A DNA stretch of 61,254 nucleotides from a virus, in the IMG/VR virus record IMGVR_UViG_3300029787_000030, positions 1,806 to 63,059 of that record; one strand, 5' to 3'. This document shows positions 18,009 to 61,016 of the stretch, in pieces (the stretch's first letter is position 1; every line of letters starts with the position of its first letter). Both the position numbers and the translations under genes were made by a program. Below the pieces are notes generated by a model. That model did no database searches, had not been told where the DNA came from, and saw only the letters and a list, made by a program, of their open reading frames with translations.

Positions 18009-18210
18009 AATTAGTATTGGTAAAGATTATAAAAATGAAGCTATGCATTACTCTGTAGGCCAAGAGGTCTACGGAGGGCATACTATTTGTAATATTATAG
18101 AAGAAGACGATAAGTACAGTATCTATATTAAAAAAGAAAAAGATGTTTTAATATGGAAAGACTTTAACAAGAATATGGCTGTATCTGTTGAGTATAATCT
18201 ACAGTATTAA
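17986..18210 (+). CDS. Small hypothetical protein upstream of the packaging genes
   Basis: 74 residues with the start placed at the internal ATG (MSSKLIRKISIGKDYKNEAM). The longer frame from 17932 would overlap the coiled-coil gene by 77 nt and adds a hydrophobic stretch that looks like shadow sequence. VGQEVYGGHTICNIIEEDDK and the following strands suggest a small beta barrel. The stop overlaps the next ATG by one base (TAATG). Confidence 0.6.
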   Translation: MSSKLIRKISIGKDYKNEAMHYSVGQEVYGGHTICNIIEEDDKYSIYIKKEKDVLIWKDFNKNMAVSVEYNLQY

Positions 18211-18818
18211 TGAAGAGTATTTATGATTTTATAATTGAACCAAAAAATACTAGATATAATAACACTAAAAAGGTTGGTGATAAAGAACTTGTATTAAATA
18301 CTGAGATTTTTAATCATCAATATGTTAGTAGAGAAGCTGTTATAAAACATTTACCACTAGCCATACAAACTGAATTACAAGTAGGTGATGAAGTTATAAT
18401 TCACCATAACGTGTTTAGAAGATGGCATAACATGCAAGGTAAAGAGAAAAACAGTAGAAGTTATATAGATGAAAACACTTATTGTGTAAAAGAAGATCAA
18501 ATATATTCTTACAATAGAAATAACCAAGGTTGGAAAACACTTAATGGTTATTGCTTTGTTAAGCCAATTAAATCTAATGATAATTTTACTACTAAAAAAG
18601 AAGAAGTTTTAGTAGGTATAATGAAGTATATGGATCCTTTATTAAAAGAGTATAATATTTCAGAAGGTGATTTAGTAGGTTTTACGCCTGATAGCGAATA
18701 TGAATTTGTTATAAATGGAGAAAAATTATATAGAATTTTAACTACAGATATTTCTTTGAAATATGAATATAAAGGAAACGAAGAAGAGTATAATCCAAGC
18801 TGGACAAGTAGCAGTTGA
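18210..18818 (+). CDS. Probable tandem GroES-fold protein
   Basis: 202 residues. The first half carries QTELQVGDEVIIHHNVFRRW and DENTYCVKEDQIYSY. The second half carries GYCFVKPIKSN (like the GroES first strand), VGIMKYMD, ISEGDLVGFTPDSEYEFVIN and LYRILTTDISLKYE (like VGDIVIF...VLIMSESDILAIVE). Each half has the strand order of a GroES barrel, so I read it as a duplicated co-chaperonin-like fold; structural prediction would decide. It sits one base after the preceding gene and overlaps the terminase small subunit candidate by 56 nt. It may act with GroEL in capsid folding, by analogy with T4 gp31. Confidence 0.55.
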   Translation: MKSIYDFIIEPKNTRYNNTKKVGDKELVLNTEIFNHQYVSREAVIKHLPLAIQTELQVGDEVIIHHNVFRRWHNMQGKEKNSRSYIDENTYCVKEDQIYSYNRNNQGWKTLNGYCFVKPIKSNDNFTTKKEEVLVGIMKYMDPLLKEYNISEGDLVGFTPDSEYEFVINGEKLYRILTTDISLKYEYKGNEEEYNPSWTSSS

Positions 18819-39400: not shown

Positions 39401-42400
39401 ATCATTACAAAAAACAATAAAAAACAAAATAGGTACAGATGCAGCTCATAGGGCTTTTGTTAATACATACTCTATGATAATGTATAATAAATTTACCACT
39501 AAGCAATTAACTGCATTAGCTAGAGAGTTAGGTAATGATAACTATTTTACTTACAAACCTTTAGGTGATAAAAAATTATCTTATAGTCAAGCATTAGCAG
39601 CGCAAAATATGGATCTTATAGAGGTTAAAAACTTACGCTCAGGTCCTGTATTAAGATTAAAGTATAATATTTCAGAAGATGCTAATACTGAAAGCAGTAT
39701 AACACCTGAAACTATAGCTCAAAGATTCAATGAATATTTCTTTCCACCAGCTGTTAATCCTGTTACTGGAGAACGTAGTTCTAAAAAAGGTACTAGAAAA
39801 GATGCTATGGCTAGAAATATAGGAGCTGAAATGGCTTTTGATGCTGTCATGCAGGTTCTTAGATCACCAGAAGTAATACAATTTAGAGCCTCAAAACTTT
39901 CAGCTGAATTTTTAGAAGATACTGATGCTAGAATACAAGAACTAGATAATACTAGTATAAATGAAATAGTTAATGTTTCTAAAAGTAAAGGTAAAGAAGT
40001 TACAGAACAACAAGTTGCAGATCAAATAGCTAAAGAACAATTACAAGCAGAAATAGCAGTTGTATCAAAATCTATATCAAGAGATCCTGGTTTTCAGTTT
40101 AGTAATATTACTTCTGAAGAAAAACAAGTATTAAATAACAGCACAATAAGCATTATAGATCTTTTAGAAAAAATGCTTAATATTTTCAATGGTCCTATTA
40201 CAGAAGAAAATAAAAGTGAAATAACTAAATTAAAAGCTAAAGATGATTTAAAAAATGCATTAATTTCATTGTATAATGAGCTTTTTGAAAGTAATGCTAT
40301 AGTTGTTGATGGAACAATTAATACAGAAAAACAAGCTTTAAACTCAGCTTATTTTTCTAAAATATTAAAAAATGTTGATCCTGAGTTAGTTGATTTTTTT
40401 AAATCAAAAAAACATCTAGCTGCTTTTAAAGATGGTAAAACTAGATTAGTTAATCAAAAAGTAACTCAAACTGTAGCAGATGGATCTAAAATATTACTTG
40501 AATCATTACCAAAAGAATTTCATCAATTATTAAGTAAAGTTTTACCACCATCATCTATGTACCAAATATTTGGTCAAGGATATATGGTTTTAGATGCAGC
40601 TAAAGGTAAACAATTTTATGATTTATTTGATTTTAAAAATTATATAAAAGATGATTCACCATCTTTTAATTATGATGTTGAAATAAAAAAAGCTAAAACT
40701 AAAACAGAACAAGATTATGTTAATGCATTAAATGATCTTTTAGAGTTAGAAAAAGACGGAGTATTACCAGAACCTCAAATTGTTAGCTCTAAAAAAGCTA
40801 CTTTATTAGGTACAATAAGAGATAGATTTAAAGGTAAAAAAAGTTTAACTCCAGAGGAACAAACTCGATTAAAAAAAGTTAATGAAGCTAACAGAGCTTT
40901 GTTAAAAGTTGTTACGCTCGCACTTCAAAAAGAGTATGAAAATAAAAAAATAGGAAAAGATTATTTAGTTCCAATATTTTTTAGTCAGTCATTAATGACT
41001 AGAGGTTTTAGAGCATTATCACAAATACAAGGTTTTATATTTAAAACAACAGATGAAGGTGGTAGTGTTATTGATGCTATAATGAATAAAGGTGAACATA
41101 TAAATATAAATGGTAACTCAATGGCTGAGTTGTACCAATATATCACTGATAATAAAAATCTTAAAAACAAATCGCTAGATAATATAATAACAGATCATGC
41201 TCAAGTATTTGGAGATAAAAGAACATTTGATAAGCTTGATTCAGAGCATGGACTTGTTTCTACTTTAGGTATTAAAAGAATTATAAATGCTTTAACTTCA
41301 TCTGAAATATTTAATTCATTTTCACTACTTCAAAGTGATAGAAAAACATTATTAAGACAAGCTGTACAGTCTGTAGATAATGAAATACAATTTAGTAATA
41401 TAAAACAAGAAGAATCAGGAGTTGAACAAACATCAGAAATTAGTAAAGATTTTAATCAAATATTAGAGCAAAATAAAGGTGTTAAAGCAGATGAAACATT
41501 TTCTGAAACAGTCGCTAGACAACGAGGTGCTACTATAGGTAGATTTAAATTTTTTGTACCACCATCTGCCAATGACTTTATGGGTTTATTATATTCATTT
41601 TTAGGTAAAGGCAAGTTAGGTGAAAAGCAAAAAGAGTTTTTTGAAAAGCATTTAAATGCTCCATATAAAAGAGCTATAGCTCAAATGGAGTCTGCTAAAC
41701 AAAAAATAGAAGATGATTATAGAGCACTTAGACAAAAGTATAAGCCTATAGCTAAAAAGTTAGGCAAAAAAATACCTCAACTAGATGGTACTAAATTAGA
41801 AGGTTTTACATATGATCAAGCTATAAGAATATTCATATGGGATTACTCTCCTATGTTTGAAAACGTAGCAGAAAAAACTGGACTAGATGAGAGAGATGTA
41901 AAGGCTTTAGCTAAAGTAGTTCAAGATGATAAGCAGTTAACTCAATTTGCTAGAGAGTTAGGTTTAATAACTGGTTTAGAAGAAGGTTATATACAACCTA
42001 CTGATACATGGTTAACAGATAATATAGCTGGTGATTTAAGTAATATAGTTGATAAAATAAATAGAAAACAATTTTTAGATGAGTTTGTTCAGAATAAAAA
42101 TGAAATATTTTCTAAGGAAAATTTAAATAAAATAGAAGCTATATACGGTTCTAATTTTAGAGAAGCATTAGAAGATATATTGTATCGCATGGAAAACGGT
42201 ACTAATAGAAACTTTGGTAAAAACAGGTTAGTTAACATGTTTACCAATTGGATAAATAACTCTGTTGGTGCTATAATGTTTTTTAACATGAGATCAGCTG
42301 TGCTTCAAACAATATCGGCAGTTAACTTTTTAAATTGGAGCGATAATAATCCATTGATGGCAGCTAAAGCTTTTGCTAATCAGCCACAGTTTTGGTCAGA

Positions 42401-43613
42401 CTTTGCTATGATATTTAACTCTGATAAATTAAAACAAAGACGTAAAGGTTTGAAAATAGATGTTAACCAAGCTGAACTTGCTAATTCTGTAGCTGATAGT
42501 AAAAACAAAGCTAAAGCTGCTTTACGTTATTTACTTAAAATAGGTTTTGCACCTACTCAAATAGCTGATAGTTTTGCTATAGCTGTTGGTGGTGCTTCTA
42601 TGTATAGAAATAGAGTTAATACAAAATTAAAAGAAGGTAAGAGCAAAGAAGTAGCTGAAAAAGAAGCTTTTGAAGAGTTTTCTGCAATAGCAGAAGAAAC
42701 ACAGCAGTCAGCAGATCCAGCTTTAATATCTCAACAACAGTCTGGTCCATTAGGTAGATTAATACTTGCTTTTGCAAATACACCAATGCAGTATGCTAGA
42801 TTAATTAAAAAAGCCGCACAGGATTTAGCAGCTAGAAGAGGTGATCCTAAAACACATATATCTAAAATAATTTACTATGTAGCAGTTCAAAACATTATAT
42901 TTACTTCTATGCAGACGGCTTTGTTTGCTATGATGTTTGATGATGATGAGGAAGATGAAGAACTAAAAGCAGAAATAAGTAAAAAAGAATTTTCTGTTGC
43001 TAATAATATGTTAGATACATTATTACGTGGTGCAGGTCTTGCAGGTGCTGCTGTAGCAACAGTTAAAAATGCTATATTACAATATCATAAAGAATCAAAT
43101 AAAGAATATGGGGAAGATCATGCTTATGTATTATTACAACTAGCTAATATATCTCCACCTATTGGATCTAAATTAAGAAAAGTTTATAGAGCAATACAAA
43201 CTAGTGAGTTTGATAAAGATGTTATAGATGAAAGAGGTTTTGCTATTGATAGTCCTATATATAAAGTTGGTGGTGATTTAATATCTGCAGCAACAAACGT
43301 ACCTGCTGATAGACTTGTTAATAAGTTAAATAATGTTATTTCAGTGTTTGATGAAAATAATAAAACATGGCAAAAAATTGCTTTAGCTTTAGGTTGGAGT
43401 ACATGGGAGTTAAATGTTAAAAATGAAGAACATGAGTTAATTAAAACAAACGCTCAAGATGCTAGAAGAAAAGAAGGTTATAAAAAAGCGGCAGAAAAAA
43501 GAAGAAGAAAAAATAATAAAACATTATTAGAATTACAAAAAGGTACAGGTAAAAAACGTAAATCATTATTAGATACAGAAAGAAGTGCAAGTATTAGACT
43601 TAATAAAGATTAA
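36480..43613 (+). CDS. Giant 2377-residue ejection/internal virion protein with HEVLH motif
   Basis: The largest gene here. The N-terminus is disordered (KYWWEDEAQPETLVQDQPET). Residues 160-360 hold Gly/Ala-rich hydrophobic stretches (GAFAGAINAITNGLGSAAYG; GIQGFIGGAGLAGGSYSARA). A zinc-metallopeptidase-like HEVLH is at 603-607. A long helical middle follows, with membrane-active segments near the C-terminus (KIIYYVAVQNIIFTSMQTAL; FDDDEEDEE just after). Large single proteins of this kind (T7 gp16 analogue) are ejected into the cell ahead of DNA. No lysozyme motif was seen. The HExxH may be a protease site or chance. Confidence 0.8.
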   Translation: MSNGNKQKYWWEDEAQPETLVQDQPETTQQAQPQKLWWQTDDNILKPTGKISTSSPGIIDTKTESKPEKELTTAQSIKNSLYNLGEQFGDIFEFYGLKDNEDGTAGAGESFDIAWNSLKSGILGPSEATSEEILSSIKGYDTEKQQTKQTKGILESIEKGDIGGAFAGAINAITNGLGSAAYGTATFGAGFLADYSAENYIEFNKLKAQNLNKNFNDLVREGEADVAVPLGIAAVQSGMEAFALGKVMKVVGGKGGLNPLSSFGKELATKALYNKSARTALSMMGTGSTEFITEIGQHAAEQVNKELGRVAGTDEEAKIKDTIIEAVTSQEGLEAGIQGFIGGAGLAGGSYSARAVSAARKVVSPGDIEADMLAVNELNNEIKKLESSENYDAAILEGKKETLKQRKIALSDKKKKGNDIFLKMEDDQILEVEDKDQLADIAAYKLTELNKKLDSGQITQAEYDSASEGFRQTYDKAKARINEIIYEADQAKAEEIAAETGLNVKKSTTSQEYADDIIQDQSANNENDPNNFNNEKELDDFLAQKPRKNASKKAQEKRNSAINLKAAVQKAKEGSAGVFAGKGNIFVNEQVSKAQGDVSINTHEVLHPILNALVGNKAEQGKIVKQLKKAATWNQRRYVAQELNRRKVAKKDHDTEWINVLSDGIVRGEVGFDKNVFEKMGDAFKSIFGAKQVNTVGFENGQQVYNFIKEYTSTSPDGAASKIALKAIKEAEAKAKVKIKDVGTVGTMQASNLNQMFEAMHPEKAKENVGEFMDTMLVDKQTGIKTDNISNTPFADQIGGMVGSIINRTYNNVKDPNSYTKDDYKRDLLNEAILLVKNEYNPEIKKKTGEDVDLDKFLSSRLNLRANNLIDRLGERGDIKTESMTRQMAGADEGTPARQFASDAPSALDSMIEVQEELENQETSIRKDLEIEDGSNIYNEVISLVKEEISNIKGVIKQADISDIKNKLVKKFGKSLQKTIKNKIGTDAAHRAFVNTYSMIMYNKFTTKQLTALARELGNDNYFTYKPLGDKKLSYSQALAAQNMDLIEVKNLRSGPVLRLKYNISEDANTESSITPETIAQRFNEYFFPPAVNPVTGERSSKKGTRKDAMARNIGAEMAFDAVMQVLRSPEVIQFRASKLSAEFLEDTDARIQELDNTSINEIVNVSKSKGKEVTEQQVADQIAKEQLQAEIAVVSKSISRDPGFQFSNITSEEKQVLNNSTISIIDLLEKMLNIFNGPITEENKSEITKLKAKDDLKNALISLYNELFESNAIVVDGTINTEKQALNSAYFSKILKNVDPELVDFFKSKKHLAAFKDGKTRLVNQKVTQTVADGSKILLESLPKEFHQLLSKVLPPSSMYQIFGQGYMVLDAAKGKQFYDLFDFKNYIKDDSPSFNYDVEIKKAKTKTEQDYVNALNDLLELEKDGVLPEPQIVSSKKATLLGTIRDRFKGKKSLTPEEQTRLKKVNEANRALLKVVTLALQKEYENKKIGKDYLVPIFFSQSLMTRGFRALSQIQGFIFKTTDEGGSVIDAIMNKGEHININGNSMAELYQYITDNKNLKNKSLDNIITDHAQVFGDKRTFDKLDSEHGLVSTLGIKRIINALTSSEIFNSFSLLQSDRKTLLRQAVQSVDNEIQFSNIKQEESGVEQTSEISKDFNQILEQNKGVKADETFSETVARQRGATIGRFKFFVPPSANDFMGLLYSFLGKGKLGEKQKEFFEKHLNAPYKRAIAQMESAKQKIEDDYRALRQKYKPIAKKLGKKIPQLDGTKLEGFTYDQAIRIFIWDYSPMFENVAEKTGLDERDVKALAKVVQDDKQLTQFARELGLITGLEEGYIQPTDTWLTDNIAGDLSNIVDKINRKQFLDEFVQNKNEIFSKENLNKIEAIYGSNFREALEDILYRMENGTNRNFGKNRLVNMFTNWINNSVGAIMFFNMRSAVLQTISAVNFLNWSDNNPLMAAKAFANQPQFWSDFAMIFNSDKLKQRRKGLKIDVNQAELANSVADSKNKAKAALRYLLKIGFAPTQIADSFAIAVGGASMYRNRVNTKLKEGKSKEVAEKEAFEEFSAIAEETQQSADPALISQQQSGPLGRLILAFANTPMQYARLIKKAAQDLAARRGDPKTHISKIIYYVAVQNIIFTSMQTALFAMMFDDDEEDEELKAEISKKEFSVANNMLDTLLRGAGLAGAAVATVKNAILQYHKESNKEYGEDHAYVLLQLANISPPIGSKLRKVYRAIQTSEFDKDVIDERGFAIDSPIYKVGGDLISAATNVPADRLVNKLNNVISVFDENNKTWQKIALALGWSTWELNVKNEEHELIKTNAQDARRKEGYKKAAEKRRRKNNKTLLELQKGTGKKRKSLLDTERSASIRLNKD

Positions 43614-53031: not shown

Positions 53032-53763
53032 TTAAAGGGTTTTAGTTATAAAAAATTGATTTGGATCAAAGTCTTCTGAATCAAAAAATAACTCATAAGC
53101 TTCAACCGCTCTTTGAACTTTGTCTTGTCCACGACCATAAAATTCATCTGAACAATCAAAGATACCTATTTGGTGAGTGTTTTTATCTATAGCAATAAAT
53201 AAAAACTCCATACCAAAAATTGTCTTATATATAAAAGCTTGACTATCATAGTTATATTTGTTTGCAGAATATTTAAATGTATTGATGTCGTTTGTAGTTT
53301 TTAAATCTATTATTAAGTTTTCAGACTGATTAATAACATCTGCTTTACCTTTCCACATACGACCTTCAATCTCTGCAATACCTGGTTCTTCATATAAACA
53401 GTTTTGTATAGTTATTAAGTCTCTACAAACATCATTAGTTATAAACTTATCTGTCATTTTTTCTATTATGTCAACTTCGTGCTGTAGCAAACATAGTTCA
53501 CCACCTGACATCTCTTTGTAAACCTTAGTATTTCTAGTTGTTGCATTTATTATTTTATACTTTTTCAACTTATCAGGTTGTAGTATTGCAGTATGAAAAT
53601 AACCACCAACTAAAAAATTAGGATTAGGCGGAGATGTTTTGCCTAAAGCTAAGGGATTACCAAGCAGTGTAGCTATATCAGAATTACTTAGGTACTTTTT
53701 ACCAAAGTCTCCATAGTAATGCTCATCATCCCTAAGCTTCATTAATGTTTGGCTTTTATTCAT
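53032..53763 (-). CDS. PD-(D/E)XK exonuclease (RecE/lambda Exo type)
   Basis: 243 residues. GGYFHTAILQPDKL gives His57, GRMWKGKADVIN gives D142, LIIDLKTTNDI gives D153-x-K155, and YNYDSQAFIYK gives Tyr172/Gln175: the pattern of the Cas4/RecE/YqaJ clan. It would chew 5' ends to make 3' ssDNA for the adjacent annealing protein. Stop-start overlap with erf (4 nt) fits a coupled pair. Confidence 0.85.
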   Translation of the reverse strand: MNKSQTLMKLRDDEHYYGDFGKKYLSNSDIATLLGNPLALGKTSPPNPNFLVGGYFHTAILQPDKLKKYKIINATTRNTKVYKEMSGGELCLLQHEVDIIEKMTDKFITNDVCRDLITIQNCLYEEPGIAEIEGRMWKGKADVINQSENLIIDLKTTNDINTFKYSANKYNYDSQAFIYKTIFGMEFLFIAIDKNTHQIGIFDCSDEFYGRGQDKVQRAVEAYELFFDSEDFDPNQFFITKTL

Positions 53764-54332
53764 GCTAATAAAGCTGTCTCAACGTCTTTAGACATTGTGT
53801 ACTTTGATTTAATAGTTTCAATTGTACCTCCAGACTTTATATAATCTTTAGCTTTATTAAAATTATCTGATGATTTAGTTAATGACTTGCGTTCTTTAAT
53901 TTTAGGAGTAGATTTACCGTGATCATTTACAGCATCACTGTCCTGAGTATCATCAATAAGTAAAAGATTACCTAGTGCATATTTCTTAGCATATGAAGAA
54001 GCACTACCGAACTGTTGTGGAGTTTGCATACCTTTTTGATTAAGATCAACGCCAACAATAGCGCATGCATGTATAGCATTTTTACCATCACTTATACGGG
54101 CATCAGATTCAATCATTGGTATATTTATGCCACTTGTATACTGATTATTAACTAAGTTTTCATTAATAGTTACAGTGACACCTAGTTCTAAAAGGAAAGG
54201 CTTTATAGCCTCTAAGATATCTTCAGCACTTCTAAAGTGGTATTTGCCGAAGTTATTAAATCTACTTTTCTTCGATTTAAATTTGGTTTGCATTTCTGCT
54301 AGTTTGAGGTTTAACTCGTTAAATTTATCCAT
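53760..54332 (-). CDS. erf: ERF-family single-strand annealing protein
   Basis: 190 residues. KYHFRSAEDILEAIKPFLLE (residues ~31-50) and the block KGMQTPQQFGSASSYAKKYA LGNLLLIDDTQDSDA (residues ~100-135) are the hallmark of ERF/Redbeta-like recombinases. A short basic C-terminal helical domain follows. It anneals ssDNA during recombination-dependent replication. It is the first gene downstream of the 33-bp promoter-like element at 54356, so the exonuclease-SSB-primase genes are probably driven from there. Confidence 0.88.
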   Translation of the reverse strand: MDKFNELNLKLAEMQTKFKSKKSRFNNFGKYHFRSAEDILEAIKPFLLELGVTVTINENLVNNQYTSGINIPMIESDARISDGKNAIHACAIVGVDLNQKGMQTPQQFGSASSYAKKYALGNLLLIDDTQDSDAVNDHGKSTPKIKERKSLTKSSDNFNKAKDYIKSGGTIETIKSKYTMSKDVETALLA

Positions 54333-54355: not shown

Positions 54356-54388
54356 ATATTATCCTTTGGTATTCGTATTTAATTTGTG
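54356..54388 (-). promoter_or_regulatory. 33-bp promoter-like element, copy A
   Basis: Minus-strand: CACAAATTAAATACGA, 9 bases, then GATAATAT-type end, in the intergenic gap between sigma and erf. The same block, exactly 33 bp long, recurs at 56832, 58054, 59653 and 60984. It should drive the recombination/replication operon. Confidence 0.8.
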
Positions 54389-54390
54389 AA

Positions 54391-55146
54391 CTACATATAA
54401 TCTAATACTTGTTCAGGTTTTACATTGTTTATTAACTTATCAACTGCTTGTCTTTTAAGTTGAGATACTCTAACAAATGCACTAGAACCTTTTAAACCTA
54501 ATTTATTTGCTATAGCCTGTGCTGATTGCTTTTCACAATCTAATCCATAACTTAACCTAAGCACTTGGTATTCTTTACTATTTAAATATCTTCTTAATAA
54601 TGATAATAGATAAGTATTTAATAAATCCATATTATAAGGTTCTGACTTATCTTCTACTTCATAAGCTGAGTCACCATCACCAATTGTATCATCTGTAGAT
54701 AAAAATATAGAGTTAAAAAACATAGCAACCATTTTTTCATCTTTACCAAAGTTCTTACGTATATCATTTAACTTATGTTCAGGTATACGCATATCACCTC
54801 TATACATATCTATTGATCTTCTAATTGAACCTCTTATTCTTTTAGATAAGAAAGACTTCATAGTCTTATCTTTATCTTCTGATAAATTAAATATTTTCCA
54901 GTCTATTCTATCTACAGCTTTAACTAGACCTACACTACCTTCTTGTATTATATCTAGTATATCTAATGTACCAGATGCTTGGGATGCGGTTGAAAACTTT
55001 TTTGATATATTTTCTACAAGAGGCATAAACTTGGTTATTAATTGGTTTCTAGTTAATCTTTCATAATCTATATCAGGTATTGATGTAATTGCTTGTTTAA
55101 CATCTTCCTTATATATCTTATATGTATTTATATTATATTTCTTCAT
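54391..55146 (-). CDS. Sigma-70-like RNA polymerase sigma factor
   Basis: 251 residues. Region 2 (LTRNQLITKFMPLVENISKK; DILDIIQEGSVGLVKAVDRI) and its DNA-melting end (FLSKRIRGSIRRSIDMYRGD) are clear. A region 3-like RIPEHKLNDIRKNFG follows, then region 4 helix-turn-helix (SAQAIANKLGLKGSSAFVRV). There is no region 1. It should direct host RNA polymerase to phage promoters; the 33-bp element repeated in this arm is a candidate target. It is co-directional with, and overlaps by 14 nt, the upstream helix-turn-helix gene. Confidence 0.9.
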   Translation of the reverse strand: MKKYNINTYKIYKEDVKQAITSIPDIDYERLTRNQLITKFMPLVENISKKFSTASQASGTLDILDIIQEGSVGLVKAVDRIDWKIFNLSEDKDKTMKSFLSKRIRGSIRRSIDMYRGDMRIPEHKLNDIRKNFGKDEKMVAMFFNSIFLSTDDTIGDGDSAYEVEDKSEPYNMDLLNTYLLSLLRRYLNSKEYQVLRLSYGLDCEKQSAQAIANKLGLKGSSAFVRVSQLKRQAVDKLINNVKPEQVLDYM

Positions 55147-55759
55147 TTTGAATATTAAGTATATCCTTCTCTTTCTTTAATTGTTTATCCATATTTCTAT
55201 GTATAGTTCTTGAGGAACAACCTAATATTCTAGCTAAGTTAGCTATTGTAATTCTTCTGTTTGAGTTATTAATTTCTAACATGCACTCGTAGATGTTATC
55301 ATTATTAACTATTTTACTTTTACCTATTAACTCTCCAACTATCTTTAATTTTTGTTTTGTAGATAAACCTGTAGAGTCTTTAAATATAACTTTTCTTAAT
55401 TTATTTTTTGGTGGTTCATTTAAATCAGAAGCAATAACATCAGATATCATACTGTCCTTAATGTTGTCTTTAACTGTAAATGTAATGAAACCATTGTCTT
55501 TGTTACATACGTGGTCTATTATTTTTTTCATTATAATATCTGATACATGCGGATTTATATAAAATAAAACATACATATGCCATTTAAGGGACTTATAAGA
55601 TGTAATCTTAGCTTTACTACGAAACAAGTCGTAGCATTGATGTGTACCGTTTTCAAAAAAATAACCCCAAGTAAAAGTTTTTGTAGGTTTATCTGAAGTA
55701 GGAAACATCTTATATGCTACTCTGTTTCGATGTAAATAATCAAGATTCCTATGTGACAT
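55133..55759 (-). CDS. Helix-turn-helix regulator with large N-terminal domain
   Basis: 208 residues. A C-terminal HTH (RRITIANLARILGCSSRTIH, residues ~172-191) is preceded by a ~160-residue N-terminal domain (WGYFFENGTHQCYDLFRSKA; LKWHMYVLFYINPHVSDIIM) of unknown fold. Its start codon lies inside the shared element GTAAGGGGCTAATGTCA (55754-55770 read on minus), suggesting self-control. It is upstream of the sigma factor and could control its expression. Confidence 0.75.
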   Translation of the reverse strand: MSHRNLDYLHRNRVAYKMFPTSDKPTKTFTWGYFFENGTHQCYDLFRSKAKITSYKSLKWHMYVLFYINPHVSDIIMKKIIDHVCNKDNGFITFTVKDNIKDSMISDVIASDLNEPPKNKLRKVIFKDSTGLSTKQKLKIVGELIGKSKIVNNDNIYECMLEINNSNRRITIANLARILGCSSRTIHRNMDKQLKKEKDILNIQNEEI

Positions 55760-55798
55760 TAGCCCCTTACCCTATTATTATAATAACCTATTGTCACA
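55752..55798. promoter_or_regulatory. Operator-like inverted repeat upstream of the HTH gene
   Basis: TGTGACATTAG (55752-55762) and CTATTGTCACA (55788-55798) are inverted arms matching at 10/11. The 25-bp spacer contains the perfect palindrome TTATTATAATAA (55775-55786). Half-site CTATTGTCA also occurs at 22-30. The upstream arm overlaps the HTH start codon. It probably controls the HTH/sigma genes; the HTH protein itself is the first candidate binder. Confidence 0.65.
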
Positions 55799-55800
55799 CA

Positions 55801-56142
55801 TTAAGTTATTAATTTTATTCTTACATTTTTCCATTTACCTAATTTTCTAGAATTTTCTACAAGAAAATCTATTGAGTCTGTATATCTTTTATTCATTACA
55901 TCTTGTATCTCCCACATGCCATCTAAATCCCCTGCACCTGATACTTCAATACACATACCAAACTTATAACCTTTTTTTAACATATCCTGTGATACAGCAA
56001 CCCATCGGTGTTGTTCAGGACATCTTTCATCAATTCGTGCGCCTGATGCTGTTATAAATGGCGTAGAATCAGTTTGTTGTGGTACAGCATTATACACTGT
56101 AGCTGTAACCATTAGTATTCCTAATATTTTAGATATTACCAT
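55801..56142 (-). CDS. Secreted 3D-domain (barwin-like) protein
   Basis: 113 residues. A signal peptide (MVISKILGILMVTATVYNAV) precedes the double-psi beta-barrel 3D domain: TPFITASGARIDERCPEQHR; WVAVSQDMLKKGYKFGMCIE; MWEIQDVMNKRYTDSIDFLV. The Asp residues of QDVMNKRYTDSIDF are typical for 3D/RlpA-like murein-active proteins. It is the only gene here with a clear export signal besides the thermonuclease. It could act on peptidoglycan or mimic a host lipoprotein. Confidence 0.7.
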   Translation of the reverse strand: MVISKILGILMVTATVYNAVPQQTDSTPFITASGARIDERCPEQHRWVAVSQDMLKKGYKFGMCIEVSGAGDLDGMWEIQDVMNKRYTDSIDFLVENSRKLGKWKNVRIKLIT

Positions 56143-56428
56143 CGTCTCTTCGTTTTTTGTCTATTTGATCTAGTTTGTCGTTTATTTTGTCTACTTTGTT
56201 TTTAATTATAGCAGCTTTCTCATATTCCTCTTTGTCTTCATATAAGTTCATTAGTGTCATTAGCCTTGCTAACTCACCAACCAGGATCTCTTCCTGAGAC
56301 ATCTGCGTATTAAGTAAAGTAAATAATACATCATTTATATTAAATAATTCTTTTTCCATATTGCTTCTTGCTTGAAGCATTTTTTTAATAACAAGATCTG
56401 CTATCTCTTGTTTTTCTTTATCTGTCAT
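56129..56428 (-). CDS. Small coiled-coil protein
   Basis: 99 residues, all helical: VIKKMLQARSNMEKELFNIN, LNTQMSQEEILVGELARLMT, YEDKEEYEKAAIIKNKVDKI, ending KKRRDDGNI. Its end overlaps the 3D-domain gene start by 14 nt. The YEKAAIIKN..D...DKL pattern is like UvrB/C-motif helices, but no function can be given. Confidence 0.6.
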   Translation of the reverse strand: MTDKEKQEIADLVIKKMLQARSNMEKELFNINDVLFTLLNTQMSQEEILVGELARLMTLMNLYEDKEEYEKAAIIKNKVDKINDKLDQIDKKRRDDGNI

Positions 56429-56429
56429 A

Positions 56430-56801
56430 TTATTCTTCCATTGGATATTTATCTAAGAACTCTTTGTCATTACCTTGTAGATAATAAAATTCATCTTCAA
56501 GTACATCATCAAAATGACATTTATCGTATATATCATCTTCAATATATATTTCAATACTTTCTTTACGTATCTCTTGTATAAGTATTTGACATAAGTCATG
56601 GTCATACATGCAAACATGCTCAGATAAATATAAAGCACCATTACTTGGTTCGCCATTAAATTTAGCTACATATAAATCGTAACCATCTCTAGTTATATCT
56701 GAATACATCGTGTATTCTACATTGCCAATATCATTATAATCGTGTGTGATTGTTGTGCCGTAATGATTGAGCACGGCTGCTACTTTTTCTTCGGTTTCCA
56801 T
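56430..56801 (-). CDS. Small acidic early protein
   Basis: 123 residues, Asp/Glu/Tyr-rich (TITHDYNDIGNVEYTMYSDI; EIYIEDDIYDKCHFDDVLED). It may be a DNA-mimic type or simply acidic. Directly downstream of promoter element B. Not recognised. Acidic small early proteins of phages often bind host enzymes; this is inference. Confidence 0.6.
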   Translation of the reverse strand: METEEKVAAVLNHYGTTITHDYNDIGNVEYTMYSDITRDGYDLYVAKFNGEPSNGALYLSEHVCMYDHDLCQILIQEIRKESIEIYIEDDIYDKCHFDDVLEDEFYYLQGNDKEFLDKYPMEE

Positions 56802-56831
56802 TGGTTTTTATTTGAATTGGTTTGTATAAAT

Positions 56832-56864
56832 ATATTATCTTATAGTAATCGTATTTAATTTGTG
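56832..56864 (-). promoter_or_regulatory. 33-bp promoter-like element, copy B
   Basis: Minus-strand block CACAAATTAAATACGA plus ...AGATAATAT, 31 nt upstream of the acidic gene at 56801. It overlaps the end of the upstream membrane ORF: its ACAAATTAA supplies that gene's last codons and stop. Confidence 0.8.
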
Positions 56865-57028
56865 AACTGTGCTATGAAAGCTATTATGGTAATAATATCT
56901 ATTACAGCAAAAATAAAAAAGTCAATGAAATGTTGCTTTTTATTTAACCAGTCTTGATAGCAACTTAGTGCTAACATACTGAATACAAGTATTATAATAA
57001 GTCCATAAATAAATAAAAAAGTTTCCAT
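56855..57028 (-). CDS. Small two-span membrane protein
   Basis: 57 residues (METFLFIYGLIIILVFSMLA; then LSCYQDWLNKKQHFID; then FFIFAVIDIITIIAFIAQFTN). Two hydrophobic spans. The 3' end lies inside promoter element B. It is immediately downstream of the zinc-finger ORF. Function unknown. Confidence 0.5.
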   Translation of the reverse strand: METFLFIYGLIIILVFSMLALSCYQDWLNKKQHFIDFFIFAVIDIITIIAFIAQFTN

Positions 57029-57029
57029 A

Positions 57030-57137
57030 TTAAAATATTATTTTTACTTTTTTATCTTTGTTACACTTACCACATTTAACTCTGTCTGTAGCATTAAATG
57101 CATTGCAATTAGCACATTGCCAAGCTAAAGTTCTCAT
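57030..57137 (-). CDS. Tiny RanBP2-type zinc finger protein
   Basis: 35 residues from the ATG at 57137: MRTLAWQCANCNAFNATDRV then KCGKCNKDKKVKIIF. The W-x-C-x2-C-x3-N-x6-C-x2-C spacing is the RanBP2-type zinc finger. A longer frame to 57248 would read through the tRNA-like gene, so the short start is chosen. Probably binds RNA or protein. Confidence 0.6.
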   Translation of the reverse strand: MRTLAWQCANCNAFNATDRVKCGKCNKDKKVKIIF

Positions 57138-57151
57138 AACTTTAAATTTAG

Positions 57152-57239
57152 CTGTAAGGGGAGGGTTCGAACCTCCACGACAACCGAAGCTGTCACCATC
57201 GAGATAGGATGGCGTGTCTTCCTGTTCCACCACCTTACA
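57152..57239 (-). tRNA. tRNA-like gene, class II fold, anticodon reads AUC
   Basis: Acceptor TGTAAGG/CCTTACA, D arm GTG/CAC, anticodon stem CCATC/GATGG with loop CTATCTC, long variable arm ACAGC-TTCG-GTTGT, T arm GGAGG-TTCGAAC-CCTCC, discriminator G. The five stems close perfectly apart from one G-U pair. A long variable arm is normal only for Leu, Ser and Tyr, yet the loop centre is ATC (reads GAU, Asp), and position 37 is a pyrimidine. The D arm GTGGAACAGGAAGACAC is Leu-like, but Leu tRNAs have A73. The isotype is uncertain and the gene may be decayed. CCA is not encoded. Confidence 0.75.
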
Positions 57240-57282
57240 GTCAATCAAACTAAACTAACTAAACTACTACTACTAAATAGTG

Positions 57283-57675
57283 TCATAAAAATCTTTTGCT
57301 ATGATCATTATCATAATCTGTCTCAAGAAACTCTATTTTATTCAATATTTTTTTACATAAATCATTATCTAAACCAAATAATTGGTCTTTAGCTTCCTCC
57401 CTTGGTAACATTCTAGTGTCTATGTGTAGGTTAAAAGGAAAGTATGTTATGCACAAATCTACAACTCTTTGATCAAAAAGTTCTTTATCTATGAATAAAT
57501 TCTCATGTACAGAGAAACTATTTGCAGACTTTAGTGTATAGCATCTATCTTGACACGCAGTCATACCATATATGATTTCATATGGTATATGATTTTTGTT
57601 TACTTGTTCTTGAGTTAGATCTTTATATACAATAAGCTCAAGCTTTGCTGACACTTGTTGTTGTAGACTATTCAT
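57283..57675 (-). CDS. Hypothetical early protein
   Basis: 130 residues with the start at 57675 (MNSLQQQVSAKLELIVYKDL), overlapping the previous gene's stop (REYE* / ATGAATAG). The longer frame from 57759 runs over the neighbouring gene and is rejected. Contains HIPYEIIYGMTACQDRCYTL, two Cys, and HIDTRMLPREEAKDQLFGLD. No family recognised. Confidence 0.6.
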   Translation of the reverse strand: MNSLQQQVSAKLELIVYKDLTQEQVNKNHIPYEIIYGMTACQDRCYTLKSANSFSVHENLFIDKELFDQRVVDLCITYFPFNLHIDTRMLPREEAKDQLFGLDNDLCKKILNKIEFLETDYDNDHSKRFL

Positions 57676-57859
57676 ATTCTCTGATAACTGTAAGACCCAA
57701 CTGATGTGCTGCATAGTTAACATGCGTGCTAGTAGTTTTTGAGTACCACTTAGGTACAATCATTTTACCATCAGATATTGTTGCAACCTTAGTGTTATAA
57801 CTCCATATGGCACCATCGTGCATGCGTAAATTCTCTTTATATCTATTAAATTTTTTCAT
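57668..57859 (-). CDS. Small protein with WSYNTKVA..KWYSKTTSTHVNYAA motif
   Basis: 63 residues. WSYNTKVATISDGKMIVPKW and YSKTTSTHVNYAAHQLGLTV form a compact beta-alpha domain seen often in phage and plasmid ORFs. The role is unknown. The stop overlaps the next gene by 8 nt and the start overlaps the preceding gene's end by 14 nt. Confidence 0.65.
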   Translation of the reverse strand: MKKFNRYKENLRMHDGAIWSYNTKVATISDGKMIVPKWYSKTTSTHVNYAAHQLGLTVIREYE

Positions 57860-58049
57860 AACTTTTGTTTTTATATACTTCTTTTAATCTTTCAAAATCT
57901 TCTTTAACTTGATCTATGGTCATATTGTTATACATTTCTTTAACATTATCTACATTGCCTGGTGACATATGATTTGAGCTAAGAGACATTGTTATTATAG
58001 CATTGACCATAAAATTTTTATTTAACTTTATGTCACGTTCGTCGTTCAT
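57846..58049 (-). CDS. Small helical protein downstream of element E
   Basis: 67 residues from the ATG at 58049 (MNDERDIKLNKNFMVNAIIT). An ATG at 58064 also exists, but it lies inside the promoter-like element E (GATAATAT), so transcription starting from E would begin near 58049 and give a leaderless or near-leaderless message. Helices MYNNMTIDQVKEDFERLKEV. Function unknown. Confidence 0.5.
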   Translation of the reverse strand: MNDERDIKLNKNFMVNAIITMSLSSNHMSPGNVDNVKEMYNNMTIDQVKEDFERLKEVYKNKSYEKI

Positions 58050-58053
58050 ATCA

Positions 58054-58086
58054 ATATTATCCATCTATTGTCGTATTAAATTTGTG
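58054..58086 (-). promoter_or_regulatory. 33-bp promoter-like element, copy E
   Basis: Minus-strand CACAAATTTAATACGA, then ATAATAT end at the same 33-bp length as the other copies. It lies in the 3' end of the upstream gene. The intervening bases contain CAATAGATG, which differ from other copies. Confidence 0.65.
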
Positions 58087-58230
58087 TTTGTAACCGTTCT
58101 TTGTTACTCTTTGAGCACTATAAATCCAGTCCCTAATTTTATTAGAGAATACAAAATTGTATTTGCATACTCTAGTTTCAGGATCATTATAGTAAGATAT
58201 ATCAATCTGTTTTGGTATCTTTTGTTCCAT
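58057..58230 (-). CDS. Paralogue of the neighbouring zinc protein's C-terminal half
   Basis: 57 residues: MEQKIPKQIDISYYNDPETR then VCKYNFVFSNKIRDWIYSAQ and a Thr/Lys tail. YNFVFSNKIRDWI matches YNFVFSNDIEDWI in the adjacent gene (58202), so the two share a module, here without the zinc-ribbon. The start overlaps that gene's end by 29 nt. Function unknown. Confidence 0.6.
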   Translation of the reverse strand: MEQKIPKQIDISYYNDPETRVCKYNFVFSNKIRDWIYSAQRVTKNGYKHKFNTTIDG

Positions 58231-58546
58231 TTTCTTTTATTAGTTTAGCTTTTCTTTTGTCAGCGTACTTCTCTCTTTTGCGCCTTAACTTGCTACCTAT
58301 CCAGTCTTCTATATCATTTGAAAACACAAAGTTGTAGCCGTTATCTGCTATAGGTGATTCTTTACCTTTAATTATAGCATTTATATTTGCTGATGAAAAT
58401 CTTGGATCATCAACACCCATAACATTACGCCTGTAGTTTGCATTATACTTTGATCCACAGTATGGTGAACAAAACTTTTTTCTTTTGTGCATTTTACCAC
58501 ACTCTAAGCATGGCTTTTCAATAAAAGCATATTTATGTTGATTCAT
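58202..58546 (-). CDS. Zinc-ribbon protein
   Basis: 114 residues. KPCLECGKMHKRKKFCSPYC (residues ~12-31) gives four Cys in a C-x2-C ... C-x3-C ribbon; then GYNFVFSNDIEDWIGSKLRR and a basic tail. The FCSxxC motif is typical of small phage zinc-binding proteins and some HNH-related ribbons, but no catalytic His-Asn-His pattern is visible. Likely nucleic acid binding. Confidence 0.65.
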   Translation of the reverse strand: MNQHKYAFIEKPCLECGKMHKRKKFCSPYCGSKYNANYRRNVMGVDDPRFSSANINAIIKGKESPIADNGYNFVFSNDIEDWIGSKLRRKREKYADKRKAKLIKENGTKDTKTD

Positions 58547-58691
58547 TGAGGTCTAACAATTGTTTAATTATATATTTTTTTCTAAACTTCATTAGCTTAT
58601 CTGCTATATTAAACCATTTTCTTTTTAATATAAAGTTTAATATATAAGATGTTATATCAAGTAGTTTGTTCAACACAGTTCTTTTGTTCAT
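58533..58691 (-). CDS. Small basic membrane-associated peptide
   Basis: 52 residues: MNKRTVLNKLLDITSYILNF, ILKRKWFNIADKLMKFRKKY, IIKQLLDLNEST. Amphipathic and basic with a mild hydrophobic span. The start lies inside the preceding gene (35-nt overlap) and the stop overlaps the next gene start by 14 nt. It has no independent leader. Real but low confidence. Confidence 0.45.
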   Translation of the reverse strand: MNKRTVLNKLLDITSYILNFILKRKWFNIADKLMKFRKKYIIKQLLDLNEST

Positions 58692-59004
58692 ACTCTTTTA
58701 AATATTCTTGCATTTCCCATATATCTTCAAACAATATCCTAGCATAAGTATAATTACCATTTGGTGATGTTACTTTTTTCTTAGGATTTATCTGATGCAA
58801 TATTAAGTTTTTAGTAGACATAACTTTGTCTCTGTAATATAGAGATCCATGTCTTTTCTTATACCAACCTTGCCAGTCAGGATCATTAATCCAACTAGGA
58901 CTAACTCTAATATAACCTGTTTTAGGATATATTACACCTATGCGATTATCTTTTAGCCGATAATACATAGCTTGGGTTTTATCCATTATTTTAATTAGCT
59001 TCAT
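58657..59004 (-). CDS. Hypothetical early protein
   Basis: 115 residues. YYRLKDNRIGVIYPKTGYIR and PDWQGWYKKRHGSLYYRDKV look beta-rich; the C-terminus IWEMQEYLKEYEQKNCVEQT is helical. An alternative start at residue 7 is possible. Overlaps the small basic peptide gene by 35 nt. Not recognised. Confidence 0.6.
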   Translation of the reverse strand: MKLIKIMDKTQAMYYRLKDNRIGVIYPKTGYIRVSPSWINDPDWQGWYKKRHGSLYYRDKVMSTKNLILHQINPKKKVTSPNGNYTYARILFEDIWEMQEYLKEYEQKNCVEQTT

Positions 59005-59007
59005 AGT

Positions 59008-59256
59008 TTAGAATCTTTGAGGGTAATCATCACTTGTTACAAGTTTTTGTAGTCTTTCAGACAAGTCATCACCTAGTAAATTACGTACAGTATTTATATC
59101 TTGTACATGTATAGGTTTGTTAGCTAACAGTTTTTTTAGTGTTTTATCTACAACTGTTAAGTCTTCGCGTAATATACTCAACCTACCTTGTATGTCAGAG
59201 TATATTCTTATTAATCGTTTTTCACGTTCCATAAAATACCATTCAGGTTTAAACAT
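59008..59256 (-). CDS. Small coiled-coil protein
   Basis: 82 residues: MFKPEWYFMEREKRLIRIYS and DIQGRLSILREDLTVVDKTL are helical, followed by KLLANKPIHVQDINTVRNLL. The stop is 3 nt before the next gene's start. Function unknown. Confidence 0.6.
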   Translation of the reverse strand: MFKPEWYFMEREKRLIRIYSDIQGRLSILREDLTVVDKTLKKLLANKPIHVQDINTVRNLLGDDLSERLQKLVTSDDYPQRF

Positions 59257-59402
59257 TATAAAAAAGTTTTAGTTGCTGAAACAAACGCCATAGCAAATAT
59301 GGTTGCCATTATTATTATACCTAGCCAACCAAGAATTACATATCTTGTTTGTTTAGACTTAGAGTATTTACTAAAGTCGTTGTGTTGGTTATGTACTCTC
59401 AT
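59256..59402 (-). CDS. 48-residue single-span membrane protein
   Basis: MRVHNQHNDFSKYSKSKQTR is a basic N-terminus, then YVILGWLGIIIMATIFAMAF and VSATKTFL. One N-in membrane span. The start overlaps the upstream stop and its own stop overlaps the next gene start (TAATG). Unknown; small early membrane peptides can modify host envelope processes. Confidence 0.55.
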   Translation of the reverse strand: MRVHNQHNDFSKYSKSKQTRYVILGWLGIIIMATIFAMAFVSATKTFL

Positions 59403-59626
59403 TACTCGCCGTGTATAGCATTTGCTTTATTGATTTTATCAAGTAAACGCTTAGGCATATGACTGTAATATAATTCTTTTACATCATCAGTGTTGCCAAG
59501 TTCATCCATAGCATCGTAAATAGCTCGCTGTGACTGCACGCCATTGAGCCATTTGCTGTGATCATCACTGTAGTGGTAGTACCAGTCATGGCACCGAAGT
59601 AGGTTTATTAAAGTTGTGGTATCCAT
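59402..59626 (-). CDS. Small early protein downstream of element C
   Basis: 74 residues: LLRCHDWYYHYSDDHSKWLN, a Trp/Tyr/His-rich start, then GVQSQRAIYDAMDELGNTDD. Helical. It is the first gene after promoter element C. The family is unknown to me. Confidence 0.6.
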   Translation of the reverse strand: MDTTTLINLLRCHDWYYHYSDDHSKWLNGVQSQRAIYDAMDELGNTDDVKELYYSHMPKRLLDKINKANAIHGE

Positions 59627-59652
59627 AGGTTTATTTGTTTATTTATTTATAT

Positions 59653-59685
59653 ATATTATCTGTAGTAAATCGTATTTAATTTGTG
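59653..59685 (-). promoter_or_regulatory. 33-bp promoter-like element, copy C
   Basis: CACAAATTAAATACGA and CAGATAATAT on the minus strand, 27 nt upstream of the ATG at 59626. As in copy B, ACAAATTAA supplies the last codons and stop of the preceding gene. Confidence 0.8.
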
Positions 59686-60077
59686 TTCTGTGTTTGGTCA
59701 GGTACAATTATATCAAATCTATCTTCAATATATCTTTGAATATCTTCAGTAGCATCATAGTCTAAGTTTATATTAGATATTGAAACTTCATTATTATATC
59801 CTATTTCAAACTCAGGATTGAAGTCATTTATATTATCAGCTGTTGAGTCTAATATAGTTGACACCATGTCAGCTAAATCTTTAACCATAATTTCAAAATC
59901 ACTTTCTAATATTTTAGGTTTTTCTAGTATCATAATATCTTCTTTTAGTGAATTTATTTGGTTTTGCATCCGCTCGTTAGCAGTGTTATTATATTCTATT
60001 TGTCTAGTAAGATCCTTGATCTTTACTAGCAGATTGATTTTCTGCTGCTCTTCTACTGGATTTGTTCTTTCATTCAT
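59676..60077 (-). CDS. Coiled-coil early protein
   Basis: 133 residues with the start at 60077 (MNERTNPVEEQQKINLLVKI), which overlaps the thermonuclease stop (TATGAATGA); the extended frame from 60131 is rejected. A coiled coil (DLTRQIEYNNTANERMQNQI NSLKED) is followed by an acidic, Asn-rich C-terminal domain. Function unknown. Confidence 0.65.
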   Translation of the reverse strand: MNERTNPVEEQQKINLLVKIKDLTRQIEYNNTANERMQNQINSLKEDIMILEKPKILESDFEIMVKDLADMVSTILDSTADNINDFNPEFEIGYNNEVSISNINLDYDATEDIQRYIEDRFDIIVPDQTQNTN

Positions 60078-60468
60078 AGCTATTATATTGTTTGAATTTG
60101 TTAAAATAAAAGTAATTGTATTGCTTTGCATAACCTTGTTTAAGCATTAGTAGATTAACATCTTGGCCATTTAAATATACATAGCGTAGTAGTCTACCAT
60201 ACTTATCTTCGTTATGCGAGTAATTATCTTTTTGTAGTGTAATAGTTTTATCTTTTATTAAGTTGTATAAATACATTTTAGATTCAATACCTTGTAATGT
60301 TTGTAACTCAGGTGCATCTATACCTATCATGCGTATTATATCGCCTTTGTTAGTTATAAATGTATCACCATCAATAACTCTGTATACTTTAGTACTTCTG
60401 TTTAAGTATATAATATATAATACTAGTAAACATAAGATTAGTGCCAGCATATTTTTATTACGCTTCAT
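60070..60468 (-). CDS. Membrane-anchored thermonuclease (SNase fold)
   Basis: 132 residues. A signal-anchor (KNMLALILCLLVLYIIYLNR, residues ~5-24) precedes the SNase domain: YRVIDGDTFITNKG (D33, D35), RMIGIDAPE (R46, D51, E54), and EDKYGRLLRYVYLNGQDVNL with the second Arg. The calcium and catalytic residues of staphylococcal nuclease are all represented. It probably acts outside the inner membrane or faces the periplasm, so it may degrade host or competing DNA there. Confidence 0.82.
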   Translation of the reverse strand: MKRNKNMLALILCLLVLYIIYLNRSTKVYRVIDGDTFITNKGDIIRMIGIDAPELQTLQGIESKMYLYNLIKDKTITLQKDNYSHNEDKYGRLLRYVYLNGQDVNLLMLKQGYAKQYNYFYFNKFKQYNSYE

Positions 60469-60649
60469 AATCTAGTTTGAGCTTACGTAGTATTTCATCT
60501 CTTTCTTGTAGATAGAATTTAGGACCTATTAGTAGATTCTTATCAGGATATTGCTCTTGATACTCTACTACATTATCATGTAATTTAGTTAAATGATTAT
60601 GTATACATTCAGCTAAAATAGTCTTTTGAAAGTATGTTAATTTATTCAT
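60458..60649 (-). CDS. Small early protein
   Basis: 63 residues from the ATG at 60649 (MNKLTYFQKTILAECIHNHL); the upstream ATG at 60658 lies inside the preceding gene and is less likely. Helical with EYQEQYPDKNLLIGPKFYLQ. It overlaps the next gene by 11 nt. Not recognised. Confidence 0.55.
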   Translation of the reverse strand: MNKLTYFQKTILAECIHNHLTKLHDNVVEYQEQYPDKNLLIGPKFYLQERDEILRKLKLDYEA

Positions 60650-60803
60650 CTTCGTCAAACTCTAGTTTAATGTTATATTCATTTGCCACTCGCTTCATTA
60701 ATACTGAAACGTAGTATTTTTTATCTCTTGTCATCTCACATAAAAATCCTGACAAGTAGTCAAGTGCATCTAAGCACTCTGAGTGTTTTACTTTGTTTAT
60801 CAT
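60642..60803 (-). CDS. 53-residue early protein
   Basis: MINKVKHSECLDALDYLSGF, LCEMTRDKKYYVSVLMKRVA, NEYNIKLEFDEDE. Helical with an acidic tip. The start overlaps the previous stop (ATGA) and its TAA lies within the next gene's start (GATGAATAA). Translation is inferred from this chain of overlaps. Confidence 0.5.
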   Translation of the reverse strand: MINKVKHSECLDALDYLSGFLCEMTRDKKYYVSVLMKRVANEYNIKLEFDEDE

Positions 60804-60964
60804 ACATATATAAATTTTATTTGTGCATTTTGTTTATCTTCAGATTTAGCTTGCACACCAATTGCTTCATAATAGTGTATTGGATTTATAAATTGTACAA
60901 GCTTACCTTCGTAAGTTATAACCATATTTGATTTTTTCTTTTGATCTTCCCAAAGCCAATCCAT
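60800..60964 (-). CDS. 54-residue early protein downstream of element D
   Basis: MDWLWEDQKKKSNMVITYEG, KLVQFINPIHYYEAIGVQAK, SEDKQNAQIKFIYV. Beta-rich. It is the first gene downstream of promoter element D (20 nt). Its 3' end coincidentally resembles a weak promoter block. Confidence 0.5.
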   Translation of the reverse strand: MDWLWEDQKKKSNMVITYEGKLVQFINPIHYYEAIGVQAKSEDKQNAQIKFIYV

Positions 60965-60983
60965 ATTTTTATTTTTTATATTT

Positions 60984-61016
60984 ATATTATCTGTAGTTAA
61001 TCGTTTTTAAATTGTG
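60984..61016 (-). promoter_or_regulatory. 33-bp promoter-like element, copy D
   Basis: CACAATTTAAAAACGA and CAGATAATAT on the minus strand, 20 nt upstream of the ATG at 60964. It overlaps the last codons of the gene at 60997. Spacing is identical to the four other copies. Confidence 0.75.

Follow-up and report, generated by a model that had tools for sequence, protein, structure and literature searches.

The stretch of DNA described here carries, on its leftward arm, a series of short repeated blocks and, among them, a gene for a sigma-70-family factor. The window, by which we mean the whole stretch analysed (61,254 nucleotides), corresponds to bases 1806-63059 of a 63,059-bp virus record (IMGVR_UViG_3300029787_000030); it starts 1805 bp into that record, and the missing 1805 bp (L088), which lie outside the window, were read separately. 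On the minus strand, the arm features five 33-bp blocks, the sigma gene, a gene for a helix-turn-helix (HTH) protein that overlaps the start of the sigma gene, a spaced palindrome, and the short genes behind the blocks (Table 1). On sequence evidence, we conclude that the blocks represent a real and conserved family of phage-specific promoters, for which the predicted reader is most probably the phage's own sigma factor.

The original prediction had placed five such blocks, with fixed internal spacing, at or near the beginnings of successive small operons. A search of the window for CACAANTTNAATACGA-N9-GATAATAT that allowed up to three mismatches returned exactly these five, each of which is 33 bp long and consists of a conserved 16-bp left block, nine variable bases and GATAATAT (window consensus CACAAwTTwAAtACGA-N9-GATAATAT). 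The pattern went unmatched in 100 dinucleotide-preserving shuffles of the window, which corresponds to a chance expectation of 0. Consistent with the claim that the late arm lacks the block, no copy there exceeded the cut used. At every window copy, an ATG lies 0-26 nt past the predicted transcription start (+1). The longer open reading frame (ORF) behind copy 3 starts at 58064, within the promoter; the likely start of this gene is the ATG at 58049. A weak match to the position weight matrix (PWM) described below (window position 56133, score 17.7) lies inside coding sequence and was excluded from the window set. The count of five holds for the window and fails as a genome total: positions 1-1805 of L088 contain five further variant copies on the same strand (TCACAAAcTTAATAAtn-N9-GATTATAT), in which TAATAAtn replaces TACGA and GATTATA often replaces GATAATA, so the parent genome carries approximately 10 copies. 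Two relatives have end repeats of 123 and 127 bp, and their ends can be joined; if the ends of this record also join, the leftward arm would begin with the L088 copies as its first promoters, and the window copies would come next. The first genes of the arm, located in L088, encode a duplicated protein of 78-80 aa that is present in 14/16 genomes of the comparison set.

Table 1. Features of the leftward arm, in window coordinates.
Feature	Position	Strand	Details
Promoter copy 1	60984..61016	-	CACAATTTAAAAACGA-N9-GATAATAT; predicted +1 60979; ATG 60964
Promoter copy 2	59653..59685	-	predicted +1 59648; ATG 59626
Promoter copy 3	58054..58086	-	predicted +1 58049 = A of ATG, leaderless
Promoter copy 4	56832..56864	-	predicted +1 56827; ATG 56801; heads HTH and sigma operon
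Promoter copy 5	54356..54388	-	predicted +1 54351; ATG 54332; between sigma gene and ERF gene
Sigma-70-family factor, 251 aa	54391..55146	-	candidate motif reader; 16/16 genomes
208-aa protein, C-terminal HTH	55133..55759	-	overlaps sigma start by 14 nt; all 16 genomes
Spaced palindrome TGTGACAaTAG...CTAaTGTCACA, 47 bp	55752..55798	-	overlaps HTH start codon
Gene behind copy 1	60800..60964	-	54 aa, no assigned function
Gene behind copy 2	59402..59626	-	74 aa, no assigned function
Gene behind copy 3	57846..58049	-	start revised from 58064 to 58049
First gene behind copy 4	56430..56801	-	123 aa, no assigned function
ERF-type single-stranded DNA annealing protein, behind copy 5	53760..54332	-	Pfam ERF 1.2e-26

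The geometry of the blocks points to promoter function. In the PWM, the -10 element is nearly invariant, and placing GATAAT at -12 to -7 puts a purine at +1 in 95% of sites and a T at -1 in 73%. The +1 predicted in this way from sequence is 7 nt past GATAAT, which is within the 6-8 nt expected after a -10 element. The nearest ATG that opens at least 30 codons is located exactly at +1 in 19/120 sites; the following offset and the interval from -6 to -1 account for one site each. This spike is independent of the PWM, because it was not used in its construction, and it pins down the predicted start site and identifies GATAAT as the -10 element. Upstream, the 16-bp element YACAAAYTAAATACGA spans -37 to -22 and is centred at -29.5. 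Taken together, the placement of +1 relative to the -10 and the spike of leaderless ATGs lead us to consider the prediction that the blocks are promoters well supported.

We also determined how the motif is distributed among relatives, which was one of the checks named in the original prediction. The comparison set consisted of 16 near-complete genomes, for 15 of which (the relatives) whole records were read, oriented with the sigma gene on the plus strand. A PWM seeded with consensus variants and iterated, at a threshold set for 0.2 false hits per genome, identified 128 sites in the 16 genomes, and the 121 with scores of at least 17 were retained. Nearly all retained sites are on the sigma strand (118/121) and within a zone around the sigma gene that extends 11 kb upstream and 1 kb downstream (117/121), which reveals strong enrichment confined to one strand and one arm. 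Genomes carry 3 to 13 copies: G002 has three retained sites, G015 has four above the cut together with further CACGGACTTA-type sites seen by eye, and the remaining 14 have at least five. Information content is concentrated in YACAAAYTAAATACGA, GATAATAW and the initiator T-R at -1/+1. When the two strong halves were scored separately, the spacer was exactly 9 bp in 109/109 high-scoring sigma-strand sites, with none at 6-8 or 10-12 bp. Copy 5 of the window was seen only in the nearest relatives. The genomes G005, G007 and G025 each carry a single opposite-strand copy at the arm junction, approximately 7.3-7.9 kb upstream of sigma, that is aimed into the late arm. Four genes of the arm are widely conserved, namely the first gene (14/16 genomes), a 99-aa gene (15/16), the HTH gene and the sigma gene (both 16/16). 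Most other genes of the motif-bearing arm are present in few genomes, which suggests that the promoters head hypervariable cassettes, with functions that are presumably host takeover or counter-defence.

Searching with the exact motif alone yielded 40 stretches, and 31 contigs were tested for the sigma and HTH proteins. Both proteins are encoded in 12/12 motif-found contigs that reach the sigma locus. In the other 19/31, the copies run off the contig end, with 11 to 1355 bp left between that end and the last copy; in these contigs, 86/87 sites are on one strand, and 17/19 contigs have the same terminase. When 84,980 species genomes of bacteria and archaea were scanned for the motif, 20 places were returned. 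Among these, L237, L254, L255 and L256 (several PWM sites each) and L239 (one site) encode proteins of this phage and are contigs from its family inside bacterial genome bins, which are labelled alphaproteobacterial, Ilumatobacteraceae, Rhodobacteraceae, Bacteroidetes and Flavobacteriaceae; these contigs are apparently misbinned. Two others, L249 and L251, have two and three PWM sites, respectively, without a match to this phage's proteins. As judged from these genomes, the motif is not a host regulon. Cellulophaga phage phi38:1 and the metagenomic podovirus MW202828, both covered in full, showed no sigma, HTH protein or motif. The same holds for the portions covered of four other isolated phages, each counted from its start: elemoA (34 kb), Gundel_1 (47 kb) and the Cellulophaga phages phi19:3 (45 kb) and phi10:1 (50 kb).

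The sigma-like nature of the protein at 54391-55146, also noted in the original prediction, was borne out by Pfam (Sigma70_r2, 6.9e-6; r4, 4.5e-4), by PHROG 351 (sigma, 5.3e-23) and by PDB profile and fold matches to SigA/RpoD. Regions 2 and 4 were located by hidden Markov model and region 3 by eye (RIPEHKL). Viral contigs contain 44 relatives of this sigma with 57-90% identity. No close homologue was found in 50,697 phage records, where the only match was to a 49-residue region of Synechococcus phage S-CBS1, and the phage collection searched held no isolate with this sigma.

Directly upstream of the sigma gene in 58/60 sequences is the HTH gene, which encodes a candidate co-factor or autoregulator. 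A fold search with the HTH protein found no PDB match at E <= 0.001 and one nameless viral match. In nearly all distinct loci, a palindrome of 46-48 bp (TGTGACAnTAG...CTAnTGTCACA) lies over the HTH start codon, where its score as a possible RNA hairpin is z -4.0. More copies occur between the divergent arms, at L088 824-871 and at about 1-45 of the window, and a run of N cuts the latter. The palindrome at the HTH gene has jointly altered arms in G002/L006 (TGTAACA/TGTTACA), where the recognition helix of the HTH protein reads RMSIYRN, compared with xRTIHRN or similar elsewhere. This one case of joint change points to the HTH protein as a possible binder of the palindrome, which is a candidate operator or RNA hairpin for autoregulation.

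The phage encodes a large terminase, portal, GroEL/GroES-like proteins, primase-helicase, ERF, exonuclease, thymidylate synthase and ribonucleotide reductase. The GroEL and GroES-like genes are on the late arm (5410-6966 and 18210-18818, plus strand). The nearest relative of the terminase is that of MW202828 (63%), followed by Flavobacterium elemo phages (44%) and then Cellulophaga and Tenacibaculum phages; based on this kinship, the host is likely to belong to the Flavobacteria. A terminase search produced at least 600 matches within one collection, and by that measure the family of marine phages is widespread. A 2377-aa virion-side protein (36480-43613, plus strand) matched no known family; across the phage family, its C-terminal 700 aa share 40-56% identity, and the remainder matches poorly. 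An 89-nt transfer RNA (57151-57239, minus strand) was called Asp (atc) by ARAGORN, a label that is doubtful because the length suggests a long variable arm of the Leu/Ser type. An Rfam search of the window returned zero matches.

Based on these findings, we consider it probable that the blocks are dedicated early/middle promoters of the phage sigma, as the original prediction had proposed. The elements, their geometry and conservation, the strand and arm limits and the association with sigma in every contig that reaches the locus are observed; promoter activity, reader and timing are predicted from them. Each block would head a short cassette on the leftward early/middle arm, and transcription would start at the purine 7 nt past GATAAT; in some cases this purine is itself the A of the start codon, which would give a leaderless message. 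The reader would most likely be host core RNA polymerase with the phage sigma, region 2 of which would read GATAATA. The other recognition element would be the 16-bp block, separated from the -10 by exactly 9 bp and contacted by region 4, perhaps aided by the co-encoded HTH protein or a different phage factor. Because the sigma gene lies behind copy 4, sigma could amplify its own operon.

Several observations weigh against this reading. The upstream element varies between genomes and does so in concert within a genome, whereas the -35-binding helix of region 4.2 is nearly invariant between phages, which makes a second factor possible. At positions 5-10 of this element, identity is 0.74 within and 0.61 between genomes, a difference that 0/300 label shuffles reach, although relatedness of neighbouring sites may contribute and the spacer shows a smaller excess too. 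In G001, which has a sigma 90% identical to that of the window, TATAAAAT takes the place of CACAAATT, with such forms in nearly all 13 copies; substitutions in region 4 were considered as the cause of this shift and rejected, since none is in the recognition helix. Furthermore, TAAATACGA occupies -30 to -22, a zone that normally makes no specific contact with sigma. Sigma alone may therefore not set the upstream half. Some copies lie before the sigma gene, in front of the arm's first genes, and the initial sigma would then need another source: read-through, a host promoter or a protein carried in the virion. In 14/16 genomes, the region around the arm head yielded no host-type promoter (TTG-N17-24-TAnnTTTG); the two scattered matches represent no consistent genome-wide excess. 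The CG of TACGA is missing more often in these early-placed promoters, in 14/46 of the first three copies per genome compared with 7/69 of later ones (Fisher p = 0.007, indicative only because the genomes are related). The assignment to the phage sigma is based on association and on exclusion of host sigmas and other isolated flavophages, with the qualification that a second factor may be involved.

How such a factor might act is addressed by a possible, if clearly less favoured, arrangement in which the phage sigma recognises only the -10, perhaps with ACA at -36 to -34 as well, and the 16-bp block is left to a different DNA-binding protein of the phage (the HTH protein or some other), in the manner of MotA. 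The variability of the block against the near-invariant region 4.2 fits this arrangement, as do the occurrence of the HTH protein in 16/16 genomes and the centre of the element at -29.5, which matches the position of the MotA box (centred at -30; PMC2988021). However, conservation is just as high in the recognition helix of the HTH protein, and the helix of G002 changes with its own start-codon palindrome, which points to the palindrome as its target; the promoter variant of G002 differs too. Moreover, no protein could be linked to TACGA; the 78-aa product of the first early gene was rejected as its reader because the gene is absent in G006 despite TACGA sites. We more tentatively entertain a previously undescribed two-protein specificity switch, in which sigma on the -10 would act with a co-encoded or other phage activator on the rigid element at -37 to -22, a factor brought in by the virion would prime the first round of transcription, and the upstream element would be re-tuned as a set in each lineage to yield private promoters.

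It is unlikely that the blocks are instead immediate-early promoters for host RNA polymerase with a host sigma, leaving the phage sigma to serve late genes. A host reader would require no priming sigma, copies stand before the first genes of the arm, and GATAAT is one base off TATAAT. However, flavobacterial sigma-A needs TAnnTTTG at -12 to -5 (PMC9723704), where the motif shares 2/6 bases, and the motif forms no regulon in bacterial genomes and is absent from the isolated flavophage sequence examined. Nor was a late-arm motif found that could be assigned to the phage sigma: k-mer enrichment picked up sequence around start codons as well as other words, and the word examined further (GGTGGTTTTG) lies inside genes. 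We regard promoters of a single-subunit or virion RNA polymerase of the phage as very improbable. A virion polymerase would solve the priming problem, and AATACGA, which is common to T7 promoters, resembles part of the T7 promoter; yet the remainder of that promoter is missing from the motif, no RNA polymerase was detected by PHROGs or Pfam in the scanned ORFs (all large ones included), and the 2377-aa virion-side protein lacks an RNA polymerase match or a conserved catalytic D motif. Finally, blocks at the boundaries of cassettes with mostly poorly conserved genes could be operators, iterons or recombination boundaries of movable cassettes, but the single orientation, the ATG spike at a fixed offset, the initiator bases at +1 and the lack of symmetry make this reading scarcely credible, and recombination at the blocks may be a side effect.

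The motif provides a predicted promoter map for the least understood part of these genomes, where it corrects the starts of leaderless genes and delimits presumed host-takeover cassettes. With its sigma, it possibly constitutes an orthogonal sigma/promoter pair for Bacteroidota, in which standard promoters fail, and the concerted drift of the upstream element among phages with near-identical sigmas presents a testable puzzle of promoter specificity. The class of phage sigmas with their own promoters is already known from phiEco32 and 7-11 (PMC8948821, PMC4331800); as far as our searches show, with literature limited to open-licence full text, what is new here is the motif, the rigidity of its spacing, the phage family and the pairing of sigma with the HTH protein.

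Comparison with known systems places the predicted promoters among three precedents. Like flavobacterial sigma-A promoters (PMC9723704), they precede short A/T-rich leaders without a Shine-Dalgarno sequence and some leaderless messages, the latter at 19/120 sites here compared with 5.5% of mRNAs in F. psychrophilum. Unlike those promoters, they have GATAATAW at -12 to -5 in place of TAnnTTTG, and they fit none of the mapped flavobacterial classes (TAnnTTTG, TAnnTTGY and CGT-box; PMC9723704). The resemblance to T4 middle promoters (PMC2988021), which also combine an element centred at -30 with a conserved -10 and head pre-late units, is a positional analogy only: YACAAAYTAAATACGA is 16 bp long and differs entirely from the MotA box consensus (a/t)(a/t)(a/t)TGCTTtA of about 9 bp, and its spacing of 9 bp has no slack compared with 12 +/- 1 in T4. 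T4 appropriates the host sigma through AsiA and MotA, whereas this phage has its own sigma, and the PHROG and Pfam matches of the scanned ORFs include no MotA or AsiA family. The closest parallel in kind is with phiEco32 gp36 and 7-11 gp47, phage sigmas with the promoters tAATGTAtA (a single element) and GTAAtg-16-aCTA for middle/late genes (PMC8948821, PMC4331800). Unlike in those phages, the motif here is bipartite, 33 bp long and confined to the early-side arm, and no close sequence relation between the sigmas was found. As in phiEco32 and 7-11, a sigma-70-family factor of the phage is predicted to steer host core polymerase to phage-only promoters, which in all three cases also lie upstream of the gene for the sigma itself.

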